Shown here: one piece after another, positions 11,966 through 21,577 of the stretch
Layout of the letters: the number at the start of each line of letters is the position of its first letter
Numbering within the stretch: position 1 is the stretch's first letter
Assembly: GCA_003963075.1 (NCBI GenBank)
Contig: RXJV01000150.1
Location: 9,586 to 43,830 of the forward strand
Reading direction: 5' to 3'
Length of the DNA stretch: 34,245 bases
Origin: Burkholderiales bacterium
GTDB lineage: Bacteria > Pseudomonadota > Gammaproteobacteria > Burkholderiales > Burkholderiaceae_C
Notes under the pieces: generated by a model
Told to the model about the DNA's origin: nothing
Seen by the model: the letters and a program-made list of their open reading frames with translations, nothing else
Database searches by the model: none
Position numbers and translations under genes: made by a program

Positions 11966-12320
11966 AGGTCCAGACTCGGTTGGCCGCATAGCTGGCCAGC
12001 ATCACGAGGAGGGTCGCAGCGCCCTGGGCCAGCAGATAGTGCAGGCCGGCGCGCACGCCCGCCGCGACGAGGCCCATGCCCAGCAGTGCACCGGCCCCGG
12101 CCGTCACGTGGAAGCGGCACCAGGCCGGCCACCACGGGCCCCGGTGGTCGAAGGTGTAGCGCCGGTTGGCCCAGAACGCGACCTGCGCCCCCAGCAGCGC
12201 GCCGGCGCCCGAACCCAGCCAGGCCGGCCAGTGCCAGGCCTCGACGGCCAGGGCCAGCAGGGCATAGTGCACTGCGGTGGCCACGGCGCCGACGCCGGCG
12301 TAGCGGGCCAGCCGCTTCAT
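11952..12320 (-). CDS. GtrA family membrane protein
   Basis: A 122-residue protein of the GtrA family with four predicted membrane helices. The opening RYAGVGAVATAVHYALLALAV and the loop FWANRRYTFDHRG, echoed by the C-terminal ANRVWTFNRG, are the family's double signature. GtrA proteins are proposed flippases for undecaprenyl-phosphate-linked sugars. The start at 12320 overlaps the stop of the ArnT-like gene upstream (ATGA), so the two are translated together. Here it would carry the amino sugar made by the + strand pair to the periplasmic face; this is inferred from context. It converges on the deacetylase gene, sharing 14 bases at the 3' ends. Confidence 0.9.
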   Translation of the reverse strand: MKRLARYAGVGAVATAVHYALLALAVEAWHWPAWLGSGAGALLGAQVAFWANRRYTFDHRGPWWPAWCRFHVTAGAGALLGMGLVAAGVRAGLHYLLAQGAATLLVMLASYAANRVWTFNRG

Positions 12321-13762
12321 GAGCAGCCGGCGGGGCGCGGCAGCTCGTACAGCGTCGCGAGTCGTCCTTCGAAGACCGGCCGCGCGTCGGGCAGGGCATT
12401 CGAGGGCTCCGCGACGAGCCAGATGCTGCCAGGTGCGCAGCGCTCGCGCGCCAGGCGGGCCGGCGTCCACAGCACGCGCTCGCCGGCGGCGGGGTCGAAG
12501 CGGGATGCATCGAGCAGCTCCTGCCGCCAGCTGTCGCCACCCTGGCTGCGCAGCGCATCCCAGTCGTCCAGCACGGCCGGGGGCTCGGTCAGCCGGGCCT
12601 GCAGCCGCAGATCGAAGAAGGAGGCGCCGGTCTGCAGCACGCGGTCGCCGGGTGCGAGCCGCTCACGCAGCGCCACGCCGACGTCGCCATGGTCGGGCCG
12701 GCCCCAGAGCATGACGGCAGGCACCGTGAACAGGCAAAGCAATGCACTGGCCCACCAAGCGGCCCGGGCGCCGCGACGCCCGCGCCAGGCCTCGAACAGC
12801 ATCAGGGCCAGCGGCATCAGTGTCGGCAGCACATAGCCGACGAGCTTGGAGCGGGGCATCGAGAAAAAGGCCAGGATGACGACGATCCACCACAGGTCAA
12901 AGCCGACACGGCGCAGAGCGCCCGGCAGCCGCAGACACAGCGGCAGCGTGCCCAGCGGCAGCACGGCGAGGTAGAACCACCAGGGCTGCGGGTTGTTGAA
13001 GCGCGGCTGGGTGTAGCGCTGGAAGTGCTGCTCGACGATGAAATAGTCGAAGAAGCCGGGGTAGCGCTGCTGCATCGCCAGCATCCAGGGCAGGGCGATC
13101 GCGGCGAACACGGCCAGCGCCAGCGGATGCAGCGCAAAGCGCAGGTCGGCCCAGCGGCGCTCCCACAGCAGCCAGGGCAGCACGATGAGGCCGGGCAGCA
13201 CGACGCCGATCAGGCCCTTGGACAGCAGGGCCAGCGCCATCGCCGCCCAGGCGGCGCACAGCCAGGCCAGGCTGCGCCGGCCGGGCGCCAGCGCGCGCCG
13301 CGCGGCCACCACGGCCATCGAGATCCAGCCGGCGACCAGCATGTCGTGGTTGGCGTACTGGCCGCCAAAGTAGAAGAGCGGCAGCACGGCCAGCACGGCC
13401 AGGGCTTGCCGCGCGCCGTCGCGGCCATAGCGGGTGCCGGCCTCGATCCACAGCGCCAGGCCCATGATCCAGGCGCCCAGCAGCGGTGCGATGCGCAAGG
13501 CCAGCTTGGTGGGCCCGAGCAGTTGCAGGGCCGCCATGTCGATCCAGTACATCAGCGGCGGCTTGTGGAAATACGGCATGCCGAACAGCGTCGGCGTCAG
13601 CGCATCGCCGTTTTGCAGCATCTCGTAGGCGACGCCGCCATAGCGGCCTTCGTCGGGCAGCGCCAGTTGCCGCCACGCGGCCAGCGCGATCAGCCACAGC
13701 GGCAGTGCGGCCAGCGGCCACCAGTGCGGCCAACGGCGGGTGGGTTCGGTGGGTGAATGCAT
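12317..13762 (-). CDS. ArnT-like GT39 family glycosyltransferase
   Basis: A 481-residue polytopic transferase of the GT39/ArnT (PMT-like) family, which takes a sugar from undecaprenyl phosphate in the periplasm and adds it to lipid A or another acceptor. After the first helix comes LPDEGRYGGVAYEML with the catalytic-loop acidic pair Asp37-Glu38. Then GMPYFHKPPLMYW (66-72) matches ArnT's periplasmic loop. About ten further helices follow, ending in a short periplasmic domain (about 385-481), somewhat smaller than in E. coli ArnT. The start at 13762 sits just before the first helix; the frame stays open upstream through a tandem repeat but is not protein-like. The neighbouring GtrA, GT2 and deacetylase genes suggest the donor is an Und-P-hexosamine, as for FlmK or LgmB. 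Confidence 0.9.
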   Translation of the reverse strand: MHSPTEPTRRWPHWWPLAALPLWLIALAAWRQLALPDEGRYGGVAYEMLQNGDALTPTLFGMPYFHKPPLMYWIDMAALQLLGPTKLALRIAPLLGAWIMGLALWIEAGTRYGRDGARQALAVLAVLPLFYFGGQYANHDMLVAGWISMAVVAARRALAPGRRSLAWLCAAWAAMALALLSKGLIGVVLPGLIVLPWLLWERRWADLRFALHPLALAVFAAIALPWMLAMQQRYPGFFDYFIVEQHFQRYTQPRFNNPQPWWFYLAVLPLGTLPLCLRLPGALRRVGFDLWWIVVILAFFSMPRSKLVGYVLPTLMPLALMLFEAWRGRRGARAAWWASALLCLFTVPAVMLWGRPDHGDVGVALRERLAPGDRVLQTGASFFDLRLQARLTEPPAVLDDWDALRSQGGDSWRQELLDASRFDPAAGERVLWTPARLARERCAPGSIWLVAEPSNALPDARPVFEGRLATLYELPRPAGCS

Positions 13763-13912
13763 CGGGAGAGCCGGCGAAGGCGTTGGGTCGGCGGTGGACG
13801 CGCGGAGCGGTTGCGCGCGGCCGGACGACGACCCGGCACGCTCGCGCAAGGGCAGGAGTTTCGCCCAGCTTTGCCAGTGCGGCCGGGCCGCGGGGAGGCC
13901 AAGCGGCCGGGA

Positions 13913-13948
13913 GGCCAGGTGGCCAGGTGGCCAGGTGGCCAGGTGGCC
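13913..13948. repeat. 8-bp tandem repeat, 4.5 copies
   Basis: GGCCAGGT is repeated perfectly four times (13913-13944) followed by GGCC. It lies in the 239-base gap between the cphA stop (14002) and the ArnT-like gene start (13762), 150 bases upstream of the latter. The rest of the gap shows no terminator or gene. Eight-base units of this purity are prone to slippage. Confidence 0.9.
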
Positions 13949-14001
13949 GATGCGCGCCGCAGCGCCGGCGTGTCGCAGGCGTAGGCGCTCGCGCTCAGGC
14001 C

Positions 14002-16566
14002 CTAGCCGGCCTCGCCGATGCGCCGCGCCAGATGGGCCAGGGCCTCCTCGACCTGGTCCACCAGCACCAGGCACAGGTCGCCCGCCTGCAGCCGCGACAG
14101 GGCCCGGTCGATGGCGACGAACTCGCCGACGATCTCCTCGACATGGCGGGTGCGCGTGGCGCCGTCCAGGCCGGCACGCAGCAAGGCCACCACCTCGCCG
14201 GCCGCGCGGCCGCGCTGGCAGGCGTCTTCGTACAGGATGACCTCGTCGAAGGCGGCACCGAGGATCTCGGTCTGGATGCGGATGTCCTCGTCACGCCGGT
14301 CGCCCGCGCCGCTGATCACGACGACGCGCTTCTTGGCGGGCATCGCCGCGACCGCATCGACCAGGGCCTTCATCGCATCGCCGTTGTGGCCATAGTCGGC
14401 GATGACGGTGGCGCCGCGATAGTCCATCACATTGAAGCGGCCCGGCGCGTTGTCGGCATCGTTGGCGAAGCTGCCCACGCCGCGGCGGATGGTGTCCCAG
14501 TCCAGGCCGACGGCCCAGGCCGCGGCCACGGCGGCCATCGCGTTCTCGACCTGGAAGCCAATGACGCCGCCGCGCGTCAGCGGGATGTCGCGCAGCGGAA
14601 TGCTCTCGCGCCAGACGCCCTGGGCGGCCACCAGCTGATCGCCGTCGACGTAGACGCAGCGCTTGCCCTGGGCGCGGTGGGTGGCCATCAGCGGGTGGTA
14701 GCGGTCGGCGGCAAAGAAGATGACCTGGCCCGGGCAGGCGGCGGCCATCTGCGCCGTCAGCGGATCGACCGCGTTCAGCACCGCATAGCCGGTCGGCGCC
14801 ACGTTCTGGACGATGACGCGCTTGACCAACGCGATGTCGTCCGCCGTGTGCAGGAAGTTCATGCCGAGGTGGTCGCCCGCGCCGATGTTGGTGACGACGG
14901 CGACCTGGCAGCGGTCGAAGCCCAGGCCTTCGCGCAGGATGCCGCCGCGGGCGGTCTCCAGCACGGCGGCTTCCACATCCGGATGCATCAGCACGTTGCG
15001 GGCGCTCTTGGGGCCGGAGCAGTCGCCGCTGTCGATCTGGCGGCCGTCGACATAGACGCCGTCGGTGTTGGTCATGCCGACCTTCAGCCCGCAGCTGGCG
15101 AACAGGTGGGCGATCAGCCGCGTGACCGTGGTCTTGCCGTTGGTGCCGGTGACGGCCACGGTCGGGATGCGGCCGTCCTCGGCCCGGGCGCCGCTGCCGA
15201 ACAGGTGGCCGATGATGGCCTCGCCCACGTTGCGGCCCTTGCCGAAGCTGGGGTTGAGGTGCATGCGCAGCCCCGGCGCCGCATTGACCTCAACGATGCC
15301 GCCGTTGATCTCCTCCAGCGGCCGCAGCACGCTCTCGGCCACCACGTCCACGCCGCAGACATGCAGGCCCACCACCTGGGCGGCGGCGATGGCGCGGGCG
15401 GCTACCTCGGGGTGCACATCGTCGGTCACATCGGTGGCGGTGCCGCCGGTGGACAGGTTGGCGTTGTTGCGCAGGATGACGCGCTGGCCCTTGTCGGGCA
15501 CGGACTCCGGCGTCAGGCCCTGCTGGGTCAGGCGCGCGACTGCGATGTCGTCGAAGCGGATCTTGGTCAGCGAGGTCGCATGGCCGTCGCCGCGTTTCGG
15601 GTCGGCATTGACCTTGTCGACCAGCTGCTTGACGGTGTGGACGCCGTCGCCGATGACATGCGGCGGGTCGCGGCGGGCGGCAGCGATCAGCTTGTCGCCG
15701 ATCACCAGCAGCCGGTAGTCGCCGCCGGGCAGGAATTTCTCGACCATGACCTGGCCGATCTCGTCGGCGGCCTTGTAGGCGATGTCGAAGTGGGCGCGGT
15801 CCACGACGTTGACGGTGACGCCCTTGCCCTGGTTGCCGTCCTGCGGCTTGACGACGACCGGCAGGCCAATTTCCAGCGCCACGGCCCAGCCGTCGTCGGG
15901 TGAATCGACCGGCCGACCGATGGGCACCGGCACGCCGGCCGACTGCAGCAGGCGCTTGCAGAGGTCCTTGTCCTGGGCGATGGATTCGCTGACCGCGCTG
16001 GTGGCGTCGACCTCGGCGGCCCAGATGCGGCGCTGCTTGGCGCCCCAGCCGAACTGCACCAGGCTGCCCTGGGTCAGGCGGCGAAAGGGAATGCCGCGCG
16101 CGACGGCCGCGTTGACGATGGAGCCGGTGGAGGGGCCGAGGCGGATGTCCTCGTCCAGCTCGCGCAGCGCCGCGATGACGCTGTCGGCGTCGAATTCAGC
16201 GTCGCCGAGCGCCGCCTGGATCAGCTTGACGGCCTGCTCGAAGGCCAGGCGGCCGACGTCTTCCTCGCTGTACTCGATGACGATCTGGTAGGTGCCGGTC
16301 TCGGGCGTGACATGGGTCTGGCTGAAGGTGACCGGGCAGCCGGCCTGGGCCTGCAGCGCCAGCGTGGCCTGCTCCAGCACCTGGGCCAGCGAGGCATCGG
16401 CGCGCAGCTCGCCGATGGTCGGGAAACGCTGGCGCAGGCGGGCCTCGAAGCCGGGCAGGCGCTCCAGCGAACGCTCGGTCTCGCTGCAATGCACGACGGC
16501 CTCGATGGCCGTGTGGCGGCTCCACATGTTCGGGCCGCGCAGGGCGCGGGTGCGGGAAACGTCCAT
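14002..16566 (-). CDS. cphA: Cyanophycin synthetase
   Basis: An 854-residue cyanophycin synthetase, which builds the multi-L-arginyl-poly-L-aspartate storage polymer by alternately adding Asp to the backbone and Arg to side chains, each using ATP. Three parts are visible: an N-terminal domain (1-160) with ALRGPNMWSRHTAIEAVV, and an ATP-grasp domain (about 165-465) with VVKPQDGNQGKGVTVNV around Lys240 and EVNAAPGLRMHL. A full Mur-ligase-like domain follows, with intact Walker A GTNGKTT at 474-480 (Lys478), the NIGAGDHLG segment, GHNGDAMKALV and GDRRDEDI. The length is slightly below the usual 870-900. It follows the paralogue cphA' with 15 intervening bases, so they form an operon. No cyanophycinase gene is in the window. 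Confidence 0.97.
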   Translation of the reverse strand: MDVSRTRALRGPNMWSRHTAIEAVVHCSETERSLERLPGFEARLRQRFPTIGELRADASLAQVLEQATLALQAQAGCPVTFSQTHVTPETGTYQIVIEYSEEDVGRLAFEQAVKLIQAALGDAEFDADSVIAALRELDEDIRLGPSTGSIVNAAVARGIPFRRLTQGSLVQFGWGAKQRRIWAAEVDATSAVSESIAQDKDLCKRLLQSAGVPVPIGRPVDSPDDGWAVALEIGLPVVVKPQDGNQGKGVTVNVVDRAHFDIAYKAADEIGQVMVEKFLPGGDYRLLVIGDKLIAAARRDPPHVIGDGVHTVKQLVDKVNADPKRGDGHATSLTKIRFDDIAVARLTQQGLTPESVPDKGQRVILRNNANLSTGGTATDVTDDVHPEVAARAIAAAQVVGLHVCGVDVVAESVLRPLEEINGGIVEVNAAPGLRMHLNPSFGKGRNVGEAIIGHLFGSGARAEDGRIPTVAVTGTNGKTTVTRLIAHLFASCGLKVGMTNTDGVYVDGRQIDSGDCSGPKSARNVLMHPDVEAAVLETARGGILREGLGFDRCQVAVVTNIGAGDHLGMNFLHTADDIALVKRVIVQNVAPTGYAVLNAVDPLTAQMAAACPGQVIFFAADRYHPLMATHRAQGKRCVYVDGDQLVAAQGVWRESIPLRDIPLTRGGVIGFQVENAMAAVAAAWAVGLDWDTIRRGVGSFANDADNAPGRFNVMDYRGATVIADYGHNGDAMKALVDAVAAMPAKKRVVVISGAGDRRDEDIRIQTEILGAAFDEVILYEDACQRGRAAGEVVALLRAGLDGATRTRHVEEIVGEFVAIDRALSRLQAGDLCLVLVDQVEEALAHLARRIGEAG

Positions 16567-16581
16567 GAGTCGAGTTTTTCT

Positions 16582-18756
16582 TTAAGCCAGGTGGAGGTCC
16601 GGGACGAAGGTGTCGAGGCCGGCGGCAATCAGCTCGGGCGAGATGCCCTTGGCCCAAGCGGCGGCCACGGCGGCCAGCAGCGTGGCGGCGTCGGTGGCGT
16701 CAGCGCCGAAGCGGCGCAGCAGGGCGTCGATGTTGGCGCCGGGCGTCTCGGCGGGCCCGTGGGCCAGCACGGCGGCGCCGCCGCGCAGGAAGACGGCCCG
16801 GCCGCCGCGCTCGCGGTGGTGCCGGATGGCTTCGAGGCTGCCGTCCTCGGCGTAGAAGACGACCTCGCCGTCGCTGAGCTCGGCCATGTCGACCAGGCGC
16901 GGGTGTGCGGCATGGAGCACGCTGGCACCATCGCTGAGCACCACGTCCACCTGGGTGCGCAGCACCTTGTAGAGCTGGTCCACGTCCTGCACGTCGAACT
17001 CGGCCAGTGCCTCAATGCCGTCGAGGTCGGTGACGACGCCGACCTGGCAGCGGTCGTAGGCCAGTCCGTCGCGCAGGATCATTGCGGCATCGTTCTCGAC
17101 GACGACGGCGTTCACGCCGCGGTTCATCAGCAGCCGGTGTGCGGCATCCCAGCATGCGCTGTCGCGCTTCTCGACCCGGCGCGTGCCGAGGAACAGCCCG
17201 TCGCGGCAGGCCAGGCCGACATGGCGGCCGTTGAGGTGCAGCAGCCAGGCCACCAGGCGTGCGATTTGGCGCCCACCCTTCGAGCCGGCCACGCCGACGA
17301 TGGGGATGCGGCCGGTCTCGTCGGCGGCGAAAAGGTGGTCGATGATGGCCTGGCCGACCGGCTGGGGCGCACCGCCGGCGGGCTTGAGATGCATCAGCAG
17401 GCCCGGGCCGGCATTGACCTCGACGATGGCGCCGCCGGTCGCGGCCAGCGGCTTGGCGATGTCCTCGGTGACGAGGTCCACGCCGGCGATGTCCAGCCCC
17501 ACGGTGCGCGCGGCCAGCGAGACGGCATGCGCCACTTCGGGGTGGACCTCGGCGGTGCAGTCGATCGCGACATTGCCGTTGCGCTGGATCAGCACGCTCT
17601 TGCCAGCCGGCGGCACCGACTCGGGCGTGAAGCCCTGGCGCTGCAGGTCGAGCAGCACGACGGGGTCTTCGCCGAGCACGATGCGGTTGAGCGGGAAGTC
17701 TTCGGTCAGGCCGCGCCGTGGGTCGGTGTTGATCTGGCTGTCGACCAGCTGGGCGATGGTCTGGCTGCCGTCGCCATGCACCCAGGCGGCCTCGCCCCGC
17801 GCCGCGGCCACGACCTGGCCGCCGACCACCAGCACGCGGTGCTCGTTGCCGCGGATATAGCTTTCCACCAGCACCGAGGAGCCCTCGGCGTCGGCCAGCT
17901 TGAAGGCGGCCTCGCAGTCGGCCTGGGTGGCGATGTCGAGGGTGACGCCGCGGCCGTGGTTGCCGTCACTCGGCTTGATGACGACCGGCAGGCCGATGTC
18001 CTGCGCCACCTCCCAGGCCTCGGCAGCGGACTTGACCTCCTGGCCCTCGGGCACCGGCACGCCGACGGCCTTGAGCAGGGTCTTGGTCAGGTCCTTGTCG
18101 CTGGCGATGCCCTCGGCGATGGCGCTGGTCATGTCGGTCTCGGCCGTCCAGATGCGGCGCTGACGCTGGCCGTGGCCGAGCTGGACGAGGTTGCCGTCGT
18201 TCAGCCGGATGTGGGGGATGCGTCGGTCCGTCGCGGCCGCGACGATGGCGGCGGTGGAGGGGCCGAGGTAGCAGTCGTCGAGCTTGTCGCGCACTCGGGC
18301 CACGGCGGCGGGCACATCGAAGGCTTCGTCGTTGATCGTCGCCATGATCAGGGCGTGGCCCTCGGCCAGCGCGGCGCGGGCGACCTGTTCGTCGCGGGCG
18401 CGGAACACCATCCGGTAGACACCGCGCTGGCTGGTCGAGCGGGTCTGGCCGAAGCCGGTGGGCATGCCGGCCAGGTTGAGCAGCTCGATGACGATGTGCT
18501 CCAGCACATGGCCCATCCAGGTGCCGTCGCGCAGGCGCTCGATGAAGCCGCCGCGTTCGCCGACACCGCAGTGGTGCTCGATCAGCGCGGGCAGGGCCGT
18601 GGTCAGGCGGTCGTTGAATCCGGGCAGCAGGTGGCTGGGGAAGTCCTCCAGTTCGCCCAGGTCGAGCCACACCTCCAGGACCGGTCGGTAGGTCCACATG
18701 TTCGGCCCGCGCAGGTAATTGATGCGCAGCAGGCGGATATCGTTCTTCTTGCTCAT
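16582..18756 (-). CDS. Cyanophycin synthetase paralogue with degenerate Mur-ligase domain (CphA')
   Basis: A 724-residue paralogue of CphA, first gene of the pair. The N-terminal domain (INYLRGPNMWTYRPVLEV) and the ATP-grasp domain (VVIKPSDGNHGRGVTLDI, Lys261; IVEVNAGPGLLMHL) are well preserved. The Mur-ligase part is not. Where CphA has GTNGKTT, this protein has GSKGGRQ (491-497), so the P-loop Lys and Thr are Gly and Arg. The NIGAGDHLG motif reads DLDGIEALAE, and the C-terminal Mur subdomain of about 130 residues is absent. It is therefore unlikely to bind ATP there or to ligate Arg. Cyanobacterial CphA2 has a comparable truncation and polymerises beta-Asp-Arg dipeptides with one active site; a similar salvage role is plausible. 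A helper role for CphA is the alternative. Confidence 0.93.
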   Translation of the reverse strand: MSKKNDIRLLRINYLRGPNMWTYRPVLEVWLDLGELEDFPSHLLPGFNDRLTTALPALIEHHCGVGERGGFIERLRDGTWMGHVLEHIVIELLNLAGMPTGFGQTRSTSQRGVYRMVFRARDEQVARAALAEGHALIMATINDEAFDVPAAVARVRDKLDDCYLGPSTAAIVAAATDRRIPHIRLNDGNLVQLGHGQRQRRIWTAETDMTSAIAEGIASDKDLTKTLLKAVGVPVPEGQEVKSAAEAWEVAQDIGLPVVIKPSDGNHGRGVTLDIATQADCEAAFKLADAEGSSVLVESYIRGNEHRVLVVGGQVVAAARGEAAWVHGDGSQTIAQLVDSQINTDPRRGLTEDFPLNRIVLGEDPVVLLDLQRQGFTPESVPPAGKSVLIQRNGNVAIDCTAEVHPEVAHAVSLAARTVGLDIAGVDLVTEDIAKPLAATGGAIVEVNAGPGLLMHLKPAGGAPQPVGQAIIDHLFAADETGRIPIVGVAGSKGGRQIARLVAWLLHLNGRHVGLACRDGLFLGTRRVEKRDSACWDAAHRLLMNRGVNAVVVENDAAMILRDGLAYDRCQVGVVTDLDGIEALAEFDVQDVDQLYKVLRTQVDVVLSDGASVLHAAHPRLVDMAELSDGEVVFYAEDGSLEAIRHHRERGGRAVFLRGGAAVLAHGPAETPGANIDALLRRFGADATDAATLLAAVAAAWAKGISPELIAAGLDTFVPDLHLA

Positions 18757-18792
18757 GGAGTGGGGGGAGTTGGGCGCGGACAGCGCGTGGAA

Positions 18793-18820
18793 TTGTGCGC
18801 CGAACTCATCGGGGAGAATT
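18793..18820 (+). promoter_or_regulatory. Candidate promoter for the cyanophycin-linked ABC exporter
   Basis: In the 92-base gap between the divergent cphA' and exporter genes, TTGTGC (18793-18798) and AGAATT (18815-18820) are 16 bases apart. Transcription would begin about 20 bases before the ATG at 18849. Both elements are partial matches, and no equally good promoter was seen for cphA' on the other strand. The short gap means the two directions must share control. Confidence 0.3.
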
Positions 18821-18848
18821 GCAGCAGCCCGTCGGAGCCCACAACAAC

Positions 18849-21104
18849 ATGCAAGACCTTGCCACCGTCATCCCGTCGCATCCTCATTCAGCCGCCCTGC
18901 AGGGGCAGCTCCAGGCCGGCGAGAACGTGGTGGCGACGCTGGAGGTTGACCTGGACGCGGACGGTCGCTTCGCCCCGGGCCTGATCGCGCTGACCGATTC
19001 GCGGCTGCTGTCCTTCGAGCCGGCCGGTGCGCAATGGCTCGCTTTCCCGCTTGCGCCGGGCCAGAGCCTGCGGCTGAGCGACCACGGCGGCCTGGCCTTC
19101 ATGGAGCTGTTTGACCCGAGCCGCCGCCTCGCGCGCTGGCGCTTCACGTTGGCGTGCAATCCGTCGGCGGTGCGTTTCGCGGATGCCTTTGACCGTGAAC
19201 TGCAGCGCCTGTCGGGCCAGGTCGTGCCCGACGATGCCGGCGCGGACGAGGACTCGGATTTCGACTTTGGCGAAAGCACGACGCCGCCCAGCACCTGGGT
19301 GCTGCTGCGGCTGTGGCGCTTCGCGCGGCCCTACCAGGGCCAGTTGTTGCTGGGATTCGCGCTGATGCTGGGCGCGACCGGTGCGACCCTGGTCTCGCCC
19401 TACCTGACCATGCCGCTGATGGACAGGGTGTTGATTCCTTTCCAGAGCGGCCAGTCCATCGACCCGATGCTGGTGACGCTGCTGCTCGGCGGCTTGCTCG
19501 GCGCGGCGCTGTTCTCCTGGGCTTTGGGCTGGGCCAAGACCTACCTGCTGGCGCTGGTGTCGGAGCGCATCGCGGCCGACCTGCGCACCGCCACCTTCGA
19601 GCACCTGCTGGGGCTGTCGCTCGAATACTTCGGCAACAAGCGCACCGGCGACCTGATGTCGCGCATCGGCTCCGAGACCGACCGCATCAGCGTGTTCCTG
19701 AGCCTGCATGCGCTGGACTTCATCACCGATGTGCTGATGCTGGCGATGACCTCCATCATCCTGTTCAGCATCCACCCCGGGCTGGCGCTGGCCACGCTGG
19801 TGCCGCTGCCCTTCATTGCCTGGCTGATCCACCTGGTGCGCGACCGGTTGCGCACCGGCTTCGAGAAGATCGACCGGGTCTGGGGCGAGATCACCAATGT
19901 GCTGGCCGACACGATTCCGGGCATCCGCGTCGTCAAGGCCTTCGCTCAGGAGAAACGCGAAGCGGCGCGGTTTCGCGAAGCAAATGCGAAGAACCTGCAG
20001 GTCAATGACCGGCTGAACCGCACCTGGAGCCTGTTCACGCCCAGCGTCGCGCTGCTGACCGAGATGGGCCTGCTGGTGGTCTGGGGCGTGGGCATCTGGC
20101 TGATCGCCCACCAGAGCATCACGGTGGGCACGCTGACCGCCTTTCTGGCCTATATCGGCCGCTTCTACGGTCGCCTCGACTCGATGAGCCGTATCGTGTC
20201 CGTCACGCAGAAGGCCGCGGCCGGTGCCAAGCGCATCTTCGACATCCTGGACCATGTCTCCAACGTGCCCGACCCGGCGCAGCCGCTGCCGTTCAGCGAT
20301 GTCAAGGGCTCGATCGCGATGCAGGGGGTTCATTTCCGCTACGGCTCGCGCTCGGTCATCCGCAACCTGAACCTGGACATCCGCCCTGGCGAGATGGTGG
20401 GGCTGGTGGGCCACAGCGGCTCGGGCAAGAGCACGCTGGTGAATCTGATCTGCCGCTTCTACGACGTGACCGAGGGATCGATCAAGGTCGACGGCGTCGA
20501 CCTGCGCCGCATCAAGGTGGCCGACTACCGCCGCCACATCGGCCTGGTGCTGCAGGAGCCCTTCCTGTTCTTCGGCACCATTGCCGAGAACATCGCCTAC
20601 GGCAAGCCGGATGCGACGCGCGCCGAGATCGTCGCGGCCGCCCGTGCGGCCCATGCCCACGAGTTCATCCTGCGCCTGCCGCATGGCTACGACAGCCTGG
20701 TGGGTGAGCGCGGCCAGGGCCTGTCCGGCGGCGAGCGCCAGCGCATTTCCATCGCCCGCGCGTTGTTGATCGACCCCGCGGTTCTGATCCTCGACGAGGC
20801 CACCAGCGCGGTCGACACCGAGACCGAAAAGGAGATCCAGCGCGCGCTGGACAACCTGGTGAAGGGCCGCACCACCATCGCCATTGCCCACCGACTGTCG
20901 ACGCTGCGCAAGGCCGACCGTCTCGTCGTGATGGACCGCGGCGAGGTCGTCGAGCTCGGGCCGCATGACGAGCTGATCGCGCGCCAGGGCCACTACTGGC
21001 GGCTGTGGGAAGCCCAGGCCCGGCGCGTCGACGCCGAGGCGGCCGAGGACGGTGGCCTGTTGGTCGTCGCACCCAACCCGAACGCACACACGGTGAATGC
21101 ATGA
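18849..21104 (+). CDS. Cyanophycin-associated ABC exporter with extra N-terminal domain
   Basis: A 751-residue half-size ABC exporter with fused membrane and ATPase domains, of the type found beside cphA genes. Residues 1-140 are an added soluble domain: VATLEVDLDADGRFAPGLIALTDSRLLSF, then strands and an amphipathic segment, resembling a PH-like or GRAM-like fold. An acidic linker (DDAGADEDSDFDFGES) leads to six membrane helices (about 165-460) and an ATPase. The ATPase has Walker A GHSGSGKST at 521-529 (Lys527), the signature LSGGERQRISIARALL, Walker B VLILDEATSAVD and the AIAHRLSTL switch His, all intact. It probably works as a homodimer in the inner membrane. The next gene overlaps its stop by four bases. 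The substrate is unknown; the link with cyanophycin rests on location and on the recurrence of this family beside cphA. Confidence 0.93.
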   Translation: MQDLATVIPSHPHSAALQGQLQAGENVVATLEVDLDADGRFAPGLIALTDSRLLSFEPAGAQWLAFPLAPGQSLRLSDHGGLAFMELFDPSRRLARWRFTLACNPSAVRFADAFDRELQRLSGQVVPDDAGADEDSDFDFGESTTPPSTWVLLRLWRFARPYQGQLLLGFALMLGATGATLVSPYLTMPLMDRVLIPFQSGQSIDPMLVTLLLGGLLGAALFSWALGWAKTYLLALVSERIAADLRTATFEHLLGLSLEYFGNKRTGDLMSRIGSETDRISVFLSLHALDFITDVLMLAMTSIILFSIHPGLALATLVPLPFIAWLIHLVRDRLRTGFEKIDRVWGEITNVLADTIPGIRVVKAFAQEKREAARFREANAKNLQVNDRLNRTWSLFTPSVALLTEMGLLVVWGVGIWLIAHQSITVGTLTAFLAYIGRFYGRLDSMSRIVSVTQKAAAGAKRIFDILDHVSNVPDPAQPLPFSDVKGSIAMQGVHFRYGSRSVIRNLNLDIRPGEMVGLVGHSGSGKSTLVNLICRFYDVTEGSIKVDGVDLRRIKVADYRRHIGLVLQEPFLFFGTIAENIAYGKPDATRAEIVAAARAAHAHEFILRLPHGYDSLVGERGQGLSGGERQRISIARALLIDPAVLILDEATSAVDTETEKEIQRALDNLVKGRTTIAIAHRLSTLRKADRLVVMDRGEVVELGPHDELIARQGHYWRLWEAQARRVDAEAAEDGGLLVVAPNPNAHTVNA

Positions 21105-21577
21105 GCACGACGCTGCCCTTCCGCGAGCTGCACCTCGACGCTTTTGGCAAGCTGGTGATGGTCGACCTGAACGGCGATGCCCACGTGGGGGTGTCGCTGG
21201 TGCGTGCCCATCCCATTTCGGCGCCGGACGAGGGCGTGTCCCTCATCGGGGGGCACGGGCATGAACTGGCCTGGATCGAGCGCCTGTCGGCACTGCCCGA
21301 CGGCCCGCGCCGCCTGCTGGAGGCTGAACTGGCTGCGCGCGAGTTCCACCCAACGCTCAAGCGGCTGATCTCGGTGAATACCTTCGGCACGCCCAGCACC
21401 TGGCGCATCGAGACCGACCGGGGCGAGGTGGACTTCGTGCTGAAGACCGAGGAAGACATCCGGCGGCTGGAAGAGGGCCGCCTCCTCATCACATCCACCC
21501 ACGGCGTGCAGCTGCAGGTGCCGGACCGCTGGGCGCTGGACCGGCAGTCCAAGCGGTTGCTGGAACGCTTCCTCTAA
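21101..21577 (+). CDS. DUF1854 family protein associated with cyanophycin genes
   Basis: A 158-residue soluble protein of the DUF1854 family, found repeatedly with cyanophycin synthetase and this ABC exporter. No signal peptide or membrane segment is seen. The N-terminal half is predicted beta (LPFRELHLDAFGKLVMVDLNG...HVGVSLVRAHPISAPDEGVS). The second half holds LAAREFHPTLKRLISVNTFGTPSTWRIETDRGEVDFVLKTEEDIRRL and ends LQVPDRWALDRQSKRLLERFL. The family is recognised from this overall pattern; no catalytic motif is evident. Its ATG overlaps the exporter stop (ATGA), so the two proteins are made together and may bind each other. Biochemical function is not established. Confidence 0.88.
   Translation: MSTTLPFRELHLDAFGKLVMVDLNGDAHVGVSLVRAHPISAPDEGVSLIGGHGHELAWIERLSALPDGPRRLLEAELAAREFHPTLKRLISVNTFGTPSTWRIETDRGEVDFVLKTEEDIRRLEEGRLLITSTHGVQLQVPDRWALDRQSKRLLERFL

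Follow-up and report, generated by a model that had tools for sequence, protein, structure and literature searches.

Cyanophycin synthetase CphA1 has three active sites, N (primer-making, motif Cx19HxxEH), G and M (PMC9262961; statements about papers cited by PMC number refer to the parts of each paper that were available). The N-site motif is present in 83% of CphA1 and is thus usual rather than required, and mutants lacking G or M activity carry H267A or D585A/H586A, respectively (PMC9262961). Beta-proteobacteria carry cphA genes, often two, without cyanophycinase (PMC5178258, PMC5670224, PMC10206079). The 'Group 1' cphA cluster from activated sludge in Farmer 2023 (PMC10687191) has two cphA genes, an unclassified ATP-binding cassette (ABC) transporter gene beside them and no cphB. 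We analysed a 34,245-nucleotide stretch of a Burkholderiales bacterium genome (GCA_003963075.1, contig RXJV01000150.1, positions 9,586 to 43,830), hereafter the window, in which cphA and a shorter twin, cphA', lie divergent from genes for an ABC exporter and a DUF1854 protein (Table 1). Both of the latter belong to families whose NCBIfam names already state the association with cphA (NF052233 and NF052234), so that, with the Farmer 2023 cluster, a link between this pair and cyanophycin is not new. New here are the complementarity of the twins, the tracking of the pair with a split synthetase and its avoidance of cyanophycinase, and, in the exporter, a predicted PH-like N-terminal domain and fixed charges in transmembrane helices 3 and 6 (TM3 and TM6). 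The NCBIfam entries as returned give no mechanism, PH-like domain or split synthetase; unlike our analysis, the available text of Farmer 2023 leaves DUF1854 and complementary sites unmentioned and suggests a composite transposon.

The four genes are almost certainly tied in function, and the best explanation overall, which we favour tentatively, is a two-subunit synthetase with its own exporter in place of a cyanophycinase. The layout proposed in the initial annotation was borne out, including the divergent gap and the gene overlap. The exporter scored 1317 bits against NF052233 ('cyanophycin metabolism-associated ABC transporter', cut-off 880), and the DUF1854 protein 206 bits against NF052234 ('cyanophycin metabolism-associated DUF1854 family protein', cut-off 150) and 152.7 bits against PF08909 (cut-off 26.8). 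CphA exceeded the cut-off of TIGR02068 (948 bits, cut-off 850), and CphA' that of NF010623 (1020 vs 877) while falling below that of TIGR02068 (700 vs 850). Among the matches listed, the nearest named relatives, mostly Roseateles/Pelomonas, had DUF1854 proteins 75-87% identical to that of the window.

CphA and CphA' align with CphA1 (7lg5, 7wac and others) over most of their length and share its N, G, M domain order. Unlike CphA1, in which a single chain usually carries all three, they place N and M on two chains. We scored the sites in 93 partner cphA and 96 cphA' genes (92 and 94 distinct sequences, respectively), one gene from genome G446 and 10 one-gene or second-locus cphA, using open reading frames (ORFs) above 400 bits. 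The N site was complete and the M site dead in all 96 cphA', with the P-loop Lys remaining in 16, the ETARGG Arg in none and the C-terminal lobe residues in two. Conversely, N was incomplete in 93/93 partner cphA (Cys present in none, the second His in 3, the first His in 71) and M was intact in 92, the exception being a fragment at a contig end. The two genes were complementary for N and M at 92 of the 93 loci having both. In the window, cphA has the P-loop, ETARGG, DH and C-terminal lobe of an active CphA1 M site in one chain and lacks Cx19HxxEH; cphA' has that motif and lacks the full M set. One-gene cphA, with the second locus of genome G553 left out, were N+ G+ M+ in 8/8 cases. The twins also differed in the G-domain loop: at the H267 and R269 positions cphA' had His in 93/96 and Arg in 95/96, and partner cphA had Gln in 92/93 and Lys in 93/93. 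Five solved CphA1 chains, from four different enzymes, have HGR at the H267 loop. In a quick tree of 45 rows, with support from the Shimodaira-Hasegawa-like approximate likelihood ratio test (SH-aLRT) only, cphA, cphA' and one-gene CphA were each set apart by a branch with support 100, and G446 fell near the middle.

A division of labour between cphA and cphA' is therefore probable. An isolated N domain supplied in trans allows primer-independent synthesis, and mixed N-/N+ dimers are active (PMC9262961), which makes division over two chains chemically reasonable. Both cphA copies are evenly expressed in Accumulibacter (PMC10687191). The complementarity of the twins was absent from the initial annotation, and we found no mention of it in the literature searched, most subscription papers being outside its reach. 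The M site is dead in cyanobacterial CphA2, as it is in CphA'. A neighbouring twin has been called 'CphA2' in Sideroxydans (PMC5178258). CphA2 of cyanobacteria is described as lacking the N-site motif in the available text of PMC9262961, unlike CphA', so we rejected the assignment of CphA' as a CphA2. Separately, five one-gene cphA loci (L089-L092, L210) have an extra adjoining gene for a Mur ligase only, which matches cphA from residue 466 on.

We surveyed the pair in draws of 398 genomes from the phylum, 274 from the class and 290 from the order. In the phylum draw, where CphA was called at E <= 1e-150 with two candidates scored per genome, CphA was found in 29/398 genomes and DUF1854 over cut-off in 21, all within the 29; the eight CphA genomes without DUF1854 had one CphA match each. 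The class draw gave DUF1854 at E <= 0.001 in 8/274 genomes and over cut-off in five. In the order draw, CphA was present in 112/290 genomes and DUF1854 in 100, all inside the 112 (P = 7e-65, Fisher test; this and the later Fisher test ignore kinship), and none of the 178 CphA-less genomes had the pair. Of the 100 DUF1854 genes, 87 lay <15 kb from a cphA, four shared a contig with cphA at a greater distance (17.6 kb to 2.3 Mb) and six were on another contig, while three genomes gave no cphA position. Nine of the 12 CphA genomes without DUF1854 carried a strong cyanophycinase, eight of these showing a single CphA match and one (G864) two weaker ones; the remaining three were G763, whose contig ends inside the exporter gene, and the incomplete assemblies G776 (79%) and G918 (82%). 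The tie of exporter and DUF1854 to cphA that the initial annotation had proposed is thus upheld, since every DUF1854 genome has CphA (21/21 in the phylum draw, 100/100 in the order draw), also where the genes are unlinked. As for other cphA loci, the tie stands for the two-gene synthetase and does not extend to CphA genomes with a strong cyanophycinase, from which the pair is missing (8/8 outside the order and nine inside).

Cyanophycinase showed the opposite distribution. In the phylum draw, the eight genomes with CphA and no DUF1854 all have cyanophycinase <1 kb from cphA. Among 23 genomes with the pair, two had the enzyme over cut-off (G000, the window's own genome, and G553), and one (G587) had a weak match below cut-off. 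In the order draw it was over cut-off in 21/290 genomes, divided into 7/100 with DUF1854, 9/12 with CphA and without DUF1854, and 5/178 without CphA (7/100 vs 9/12, P = 4e-7, Fisher test). The enzyme lay within 2.3 kb of cphA in seven of those nine CphA genomes; in the seven with DUF1854 it was never near the four-gene locus, being either on a different contig or separated from it by about 180 kb or more. The low rate in genomes with the pair agrees with PMC10206079 (Table 2), in which cyanophycinase occurs in 2.8% of 903 beta-proteobacterial CphA1 genomes, the share being 95.6 to 100% in each of six further clades and 70% in 'other'. Two cphA copies, adjacent or not, without cyanophycinase have also been described in PMC5178258 and PMC5670224.

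We scored nine of the far cyanophycinases in genomes with the pair for an export signal, leaving out five (L190, L191, L194, L196 and L197) that were weak, partial or unclear. The score, mean hydropathy over the 11 residues just before the domain, is a crude proxy and not a signal-peptide predictor. A strongly hydrophobic stretch preceded the domain in 6/9 (2.1-2.7); the others scored 1.5 (L207), 1.07 (L189, with a hydrophobic stretch further upstream) and 0.85 (L195). Nine cyanophycinases from one-gene loci and from the second locus of G553 scored <=1.03. The window's own genome has, on contigs other than that of the window (C58 and C63), three cyanophycinase-like proteins over cut-off (L189, L193 and L195), and the N-terminus of at least one of them is clearly signal-like. 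The second cyanophycin locus of G553 (L095, G553:C1:5335000-5354900) has two convergent cphA beside a cyanophycinase, both with the N site missing and M intact, and genome G901 also has extra cphA copies beside a cyanophycinase.

The four-gene unit is conserved in two arrangements. In a whole-genome set of 22 loci with DUF1854 over cut-off (L062-L083), cphA-cphA' was divergent from exporter-DUF1854 at 21; at the other, in G446, the contig ends after one cphA, so a second copy is possible. A scan of named species genomes returned at least 556 DUF1854 relatives among at least 597 stretches, of which the best 80 were used. All four genes stood together at 71 of these 80, 63 in the divergent arrangement of the window (cphA being in two pieces in one, L124) and eight on one strand in the order exporter-DUF1854-cphA'-cphA (two Nitrosomonas, two Nitrosospira, two Accumulibacter, one Azonexaceae genome and one uncultured proteobacterium). 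A contig end interrupts a further eight, and in L160 (Propionivibrio) the pair is alone at the locus, with cphA and cphA' on another contig of the genome. Exporter and DUF1854 overlap by four bases at 11/22 whole-genome loci and are <=31 bases apart at all but one, with gene starts chosen by a simple rule. Two lineages outside the order also have the pair, one family (G091, G213), which carries the locus, and G446. In L082 (G091), cphA' looks broken: its best stretch matches the first 319 residues only, with the G-loop residues lost, and the other three genes are matched over nearly their whole length. No window ORF other than those that overlap the four genes has relatives at a majority of the best 80 loci. 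We rejected the bacterioferritin gene next door as a member of the unit, its relatives being found at only six of these loci, and we rejected plasmid cargo, as a tblastn search of 72,556 plasmid records with the DUF1854 protein gave no match at E 1e-5.

The exporter has intact ATPase motifs (Walker A GHSGSGKST, signature LSGGERQR, Walker B LILDEATS, H-loop AHRLST). In the model of its residues 1-150 (predicted local distance difference test score, pLDDT, 87), seven strands are followed by a C-terminal helix, and a fold search with this model returned PH, PTB or FERM-type structures as nearly all of the 50 listed matches (probability 0.96-1.00; best E 3.7e-3, none at 0.001). The N-terminal domain thus models as PH-like, which gives a basis to the suggestion in the initial annotation that this domain might sense granule state. 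Against Pfam, the domain of the window had no match and those of five relatives had weak matches only, mostly to zinc ribbons. A zinc-ribbon pattern follows the domain in 65/96 exporters and in both relatives from genomes without cphA, and is missing in the window and its seven nearest kin. Seven charges in the membrane part are fixed in the 96 exporters (D290 in 95; D294, E/D405, R438, R442, D444 and R448 in 96 each) and are uncharged in both cphA-free relatives. Fixed charges are also found at other positions, 230 and 239 among them, not all of which lie within the membrane. TM0288, read off the alignment, has Q and G at the charged TM3 places and Q, P, N and N at those in TM6.

The exporter shares its half-transporter architecture with MsbA, which unlike it has no PH-like N-domain. 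We take R78, R148, R296 and K299 of MsbA to be lipid A contacts. Aligned with Escherichia coli MsbA, the 96 exporters have mostly S/A/G, T, T/G and D at these places, the last an Asp where MsbA has K299, and the window exporter scored 470.7 bits against the MsbA model TIGR02203 (cut-off 602). Flipping of a lipid, raised in the initial annotation, is therefore disfavoured in its MsbA-type, lipid A form. A cavity with fixed acids and bases would, judging from the aligned residues, suit zwitterionic Asp-Arg better than lipid A.

The DUF1854 protein models as strands, a helix and strands again (pLDDT 90; predicted template modelling score 0.57), and 31 residues are invariant in 40 sequences, including W101, T105, G108, D119, R122, D147 and S150. 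Searches of solved structures gave it no clear sequence relative, the best E being 0.059, and no fold match at E <= 0.001. Whether or not cphA is present, DUF1854 was seen next to an exporter throughout, except at contig ends and in one shortened copy, which suggests that it partners primarily the exporter and only secondarily the synthetase. Three genomes with distant DUF1854 matches (G184, G001, G043) have no CphA at E <= 1e-100, and two of these matches adjoin an exporter. At L084 (7525-10218) and L085 (2606-5304), in CphA-free genomes, DUF1854 is accompanied by an exporter whose N-terminal region is similar and which has a zinc ribbon, and there the module has another use. The shortened copy (L086, 9444-9776, + strand) begins with residues resembling those at the start of the membrane protein encoded upstream of the L084 exporter and, by eye, looks like the relic of a deletion that took the exporter. 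In the literature searched we found no paper on DUF1854, including with cyanophycin or the NCBIfam name, and no mechanism in print for the pair.

From these observations we infer the following scheme. CphA would add Arg through its intact Mur-ligase (M) site, and CphA', in which the loop of the ATP-grasp (G) domain that adds Asp retains its usual form, would by homology use its N site to cut young chains into primers or oligomers, the two most likely acting as a heteromer. Most likely, the exporter, with DUF1854 as its putative cytoplasmic partner, carries Asp-Arg in short form, as (beta-Asp-Arg)n or beta-Asp-Arg, over the inner membrane, and this outlet would stand in for the cyanophycinase of one-gene systems. 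That the substrate is a charged Asp-Arg oligomer or dipeptide is quite possible. The initial annotation had dipeptides or arginine leaving as stores are mobilised; moving Asp-Arg out fits best, though not driven by cyanophycinase, which is mostly absent from these genomes. Going further, Burkholderiales cyanophycin might be a secreted product and not a storage granule, the synthetase making and trimming short (beta-Asp-Arg)n, the exporter and DUF1854 sending it out, and secreted cyanophycinase-type peptidases recovering it in some species. We regard this as a speculative reading, somewhat unlikely as a whole. If true, secretion would explain why these bacteria are mostly without intracellular cyanophycinase, and no earlier export system for this polymer family is known to us.

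Among the alternatives, the polymer may be stored inside, with the exporter as an overflow valve for arginine or beta-Asp-Arg released by the CphA' N site or another peptidase. The N site kept in 96/96 CphA', the charged residues of the exporter and the presence of IadA/IaaA in 70.9% of 903 beta-Proteobacteria (PMC10206079) are consistent with this. However, a valve need not be so strictly co-retained (100/100), and no cyanophycin was observed in wild-type R. eutropha, which has two homologues (PMC11362209, a secondary citation of Adames 2013), so we consider it unlikely. Alternatively, the PH-like domain and DUF1854 might dock the synthetase or granule at the membrane, the ABC part flipping a lipid or acting as an ATP-driven sensor. 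The predicted PH-like fold and the zinc-ribbon pattern in 65/96 exporters would fit such an organiser, but PH folds bind peptides and proteins as well, and the replaced basic positions and low MsbA score (471 vs 602) argue against it; we consider it doubtful. It is improbable that the ABC protein instead imports Asp-Arg dipeptides or arginine for CphA' to polymerise, as CphA2 does. Import is known for a few type IV 'exporters', CphA' and CphA2 share a dead M site, and some genomes have cyanophycinase-like proteins with signal-like N-termini, but CphA' has the N motif (96/96) that CphA2 is described as lacking (PMC9262961), no shared binding-protein gene was seen among window ORFs with relatives at most of the best 80 loci, and cyanophycinase is over cut-off in only 7/100 DUF1854 genomes. 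Neighbourhood by descent without shared function, to which the concentration of most loci in one order would point, is very improbable, because the pair is missing from nine in-order CphA genomes with strong cyanophycinase and from 178/178 without CphA, is kept when unlinked, occurs in two gene orders and is carried by two lineages outside the order.

Several observations weigh against a split synthetase with an export outlet. Nearly all loci come from one order, so the counts are not independent, and the DUF1854-exporter module is present also without cphA and is thus wider than a cyanophycin role. The Gln/Lys G-loop occurs also in G446, which is N+ M+, and in the two cphA copies at the second locus of G553, so that in cphA the G domain may still work, with only N and M divided. 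In primer-free synthesis, mixed dimers are slower than those carrying every site on a single chain (PMC9262961). Tetrasphaera is reported to have two cphA copies and cphB (PMC10687191), which means that twin genes alone do not exclude cyanophycinase. At least L195, one of the far cyanophycinase-like proteins in the window's own genome, shows no export signal. In the exporter, the helix positions come from alignment rather than structure, and MsbA too is acidic (E149) where D294 stands.

It seems that in many bacteria of soil and water the enzyme that makes this nitrogen-storage polymer is divided between two proteins and accompanied by a dedicated exporter instead of the usual cyanophycinase, a hint that the product may leave the cell and not be stored. 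The beta-proteobacterial puzzle of cphA without cyanophycinase becomes testable. The R. eutropha enzymes made singly reportedly gave little polymer, for which the split would offer a reason. Were the product exported, a 'storage polymer' would also serve as a secreted one. This would be of consequence for recovering nitrogen with nitrifiers and Accumulibacter, both carriers of the locus.

Table 1. Features of the cyanophycin locus, with positions counted from the first nucleotide of the window.
Feature	Position	Strand	Description
cphA, 854 aa	14002..16566	-	cyanophycin synthetase subunit; N-site lost, Mur-ligase M-site intact
M (Mur-ligase) domain P-loop GTNGKTT of cphA, aa 474-480	15127..15147	-	intact
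cphA Gln 246	15829..15831	-	equivalent of SuCphA1 H267, G-domain loop
cphA', 724 aa	16582..18756	-	short twin with intact N-site and G-loop; degenerate M P-loop, C-terminal Mur lobe missing
cphA' N-domain metallopeptidase-like site H61, C63, H83, E86, H87	18496..18576	-	HxC, HxxEH; motif from PMC9262961
Divergent intergenic region, 92 bases	18757..18848	.	between cphA' start and exporter start
ABC exporter, 751 aa, from ATG 18849	18849..21104	+	half-transporter, type IV (ABCB-like), NF052233
Exporter N-terminal domain, predicted PH-like, aa 27-121	18927..19211	+	
Exporter TM3 acidic pair D290/D294	19716..19730	+	
Exporter TM6 charged stretch R438, R442, D444, R448	20160..20192	+	
DUF1854 partner, 158 aa	21101..21577	+	NF052234 / PF08909; 4-base overlap with exporter stop (ATGA)

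Just past cphA, the window ORF at 12317-14074 (- strand) reads as a putative ArnT-type membrane glycosyltransferase, and the ORF, taken from stop to stop, has relatives at 21/80 loci.

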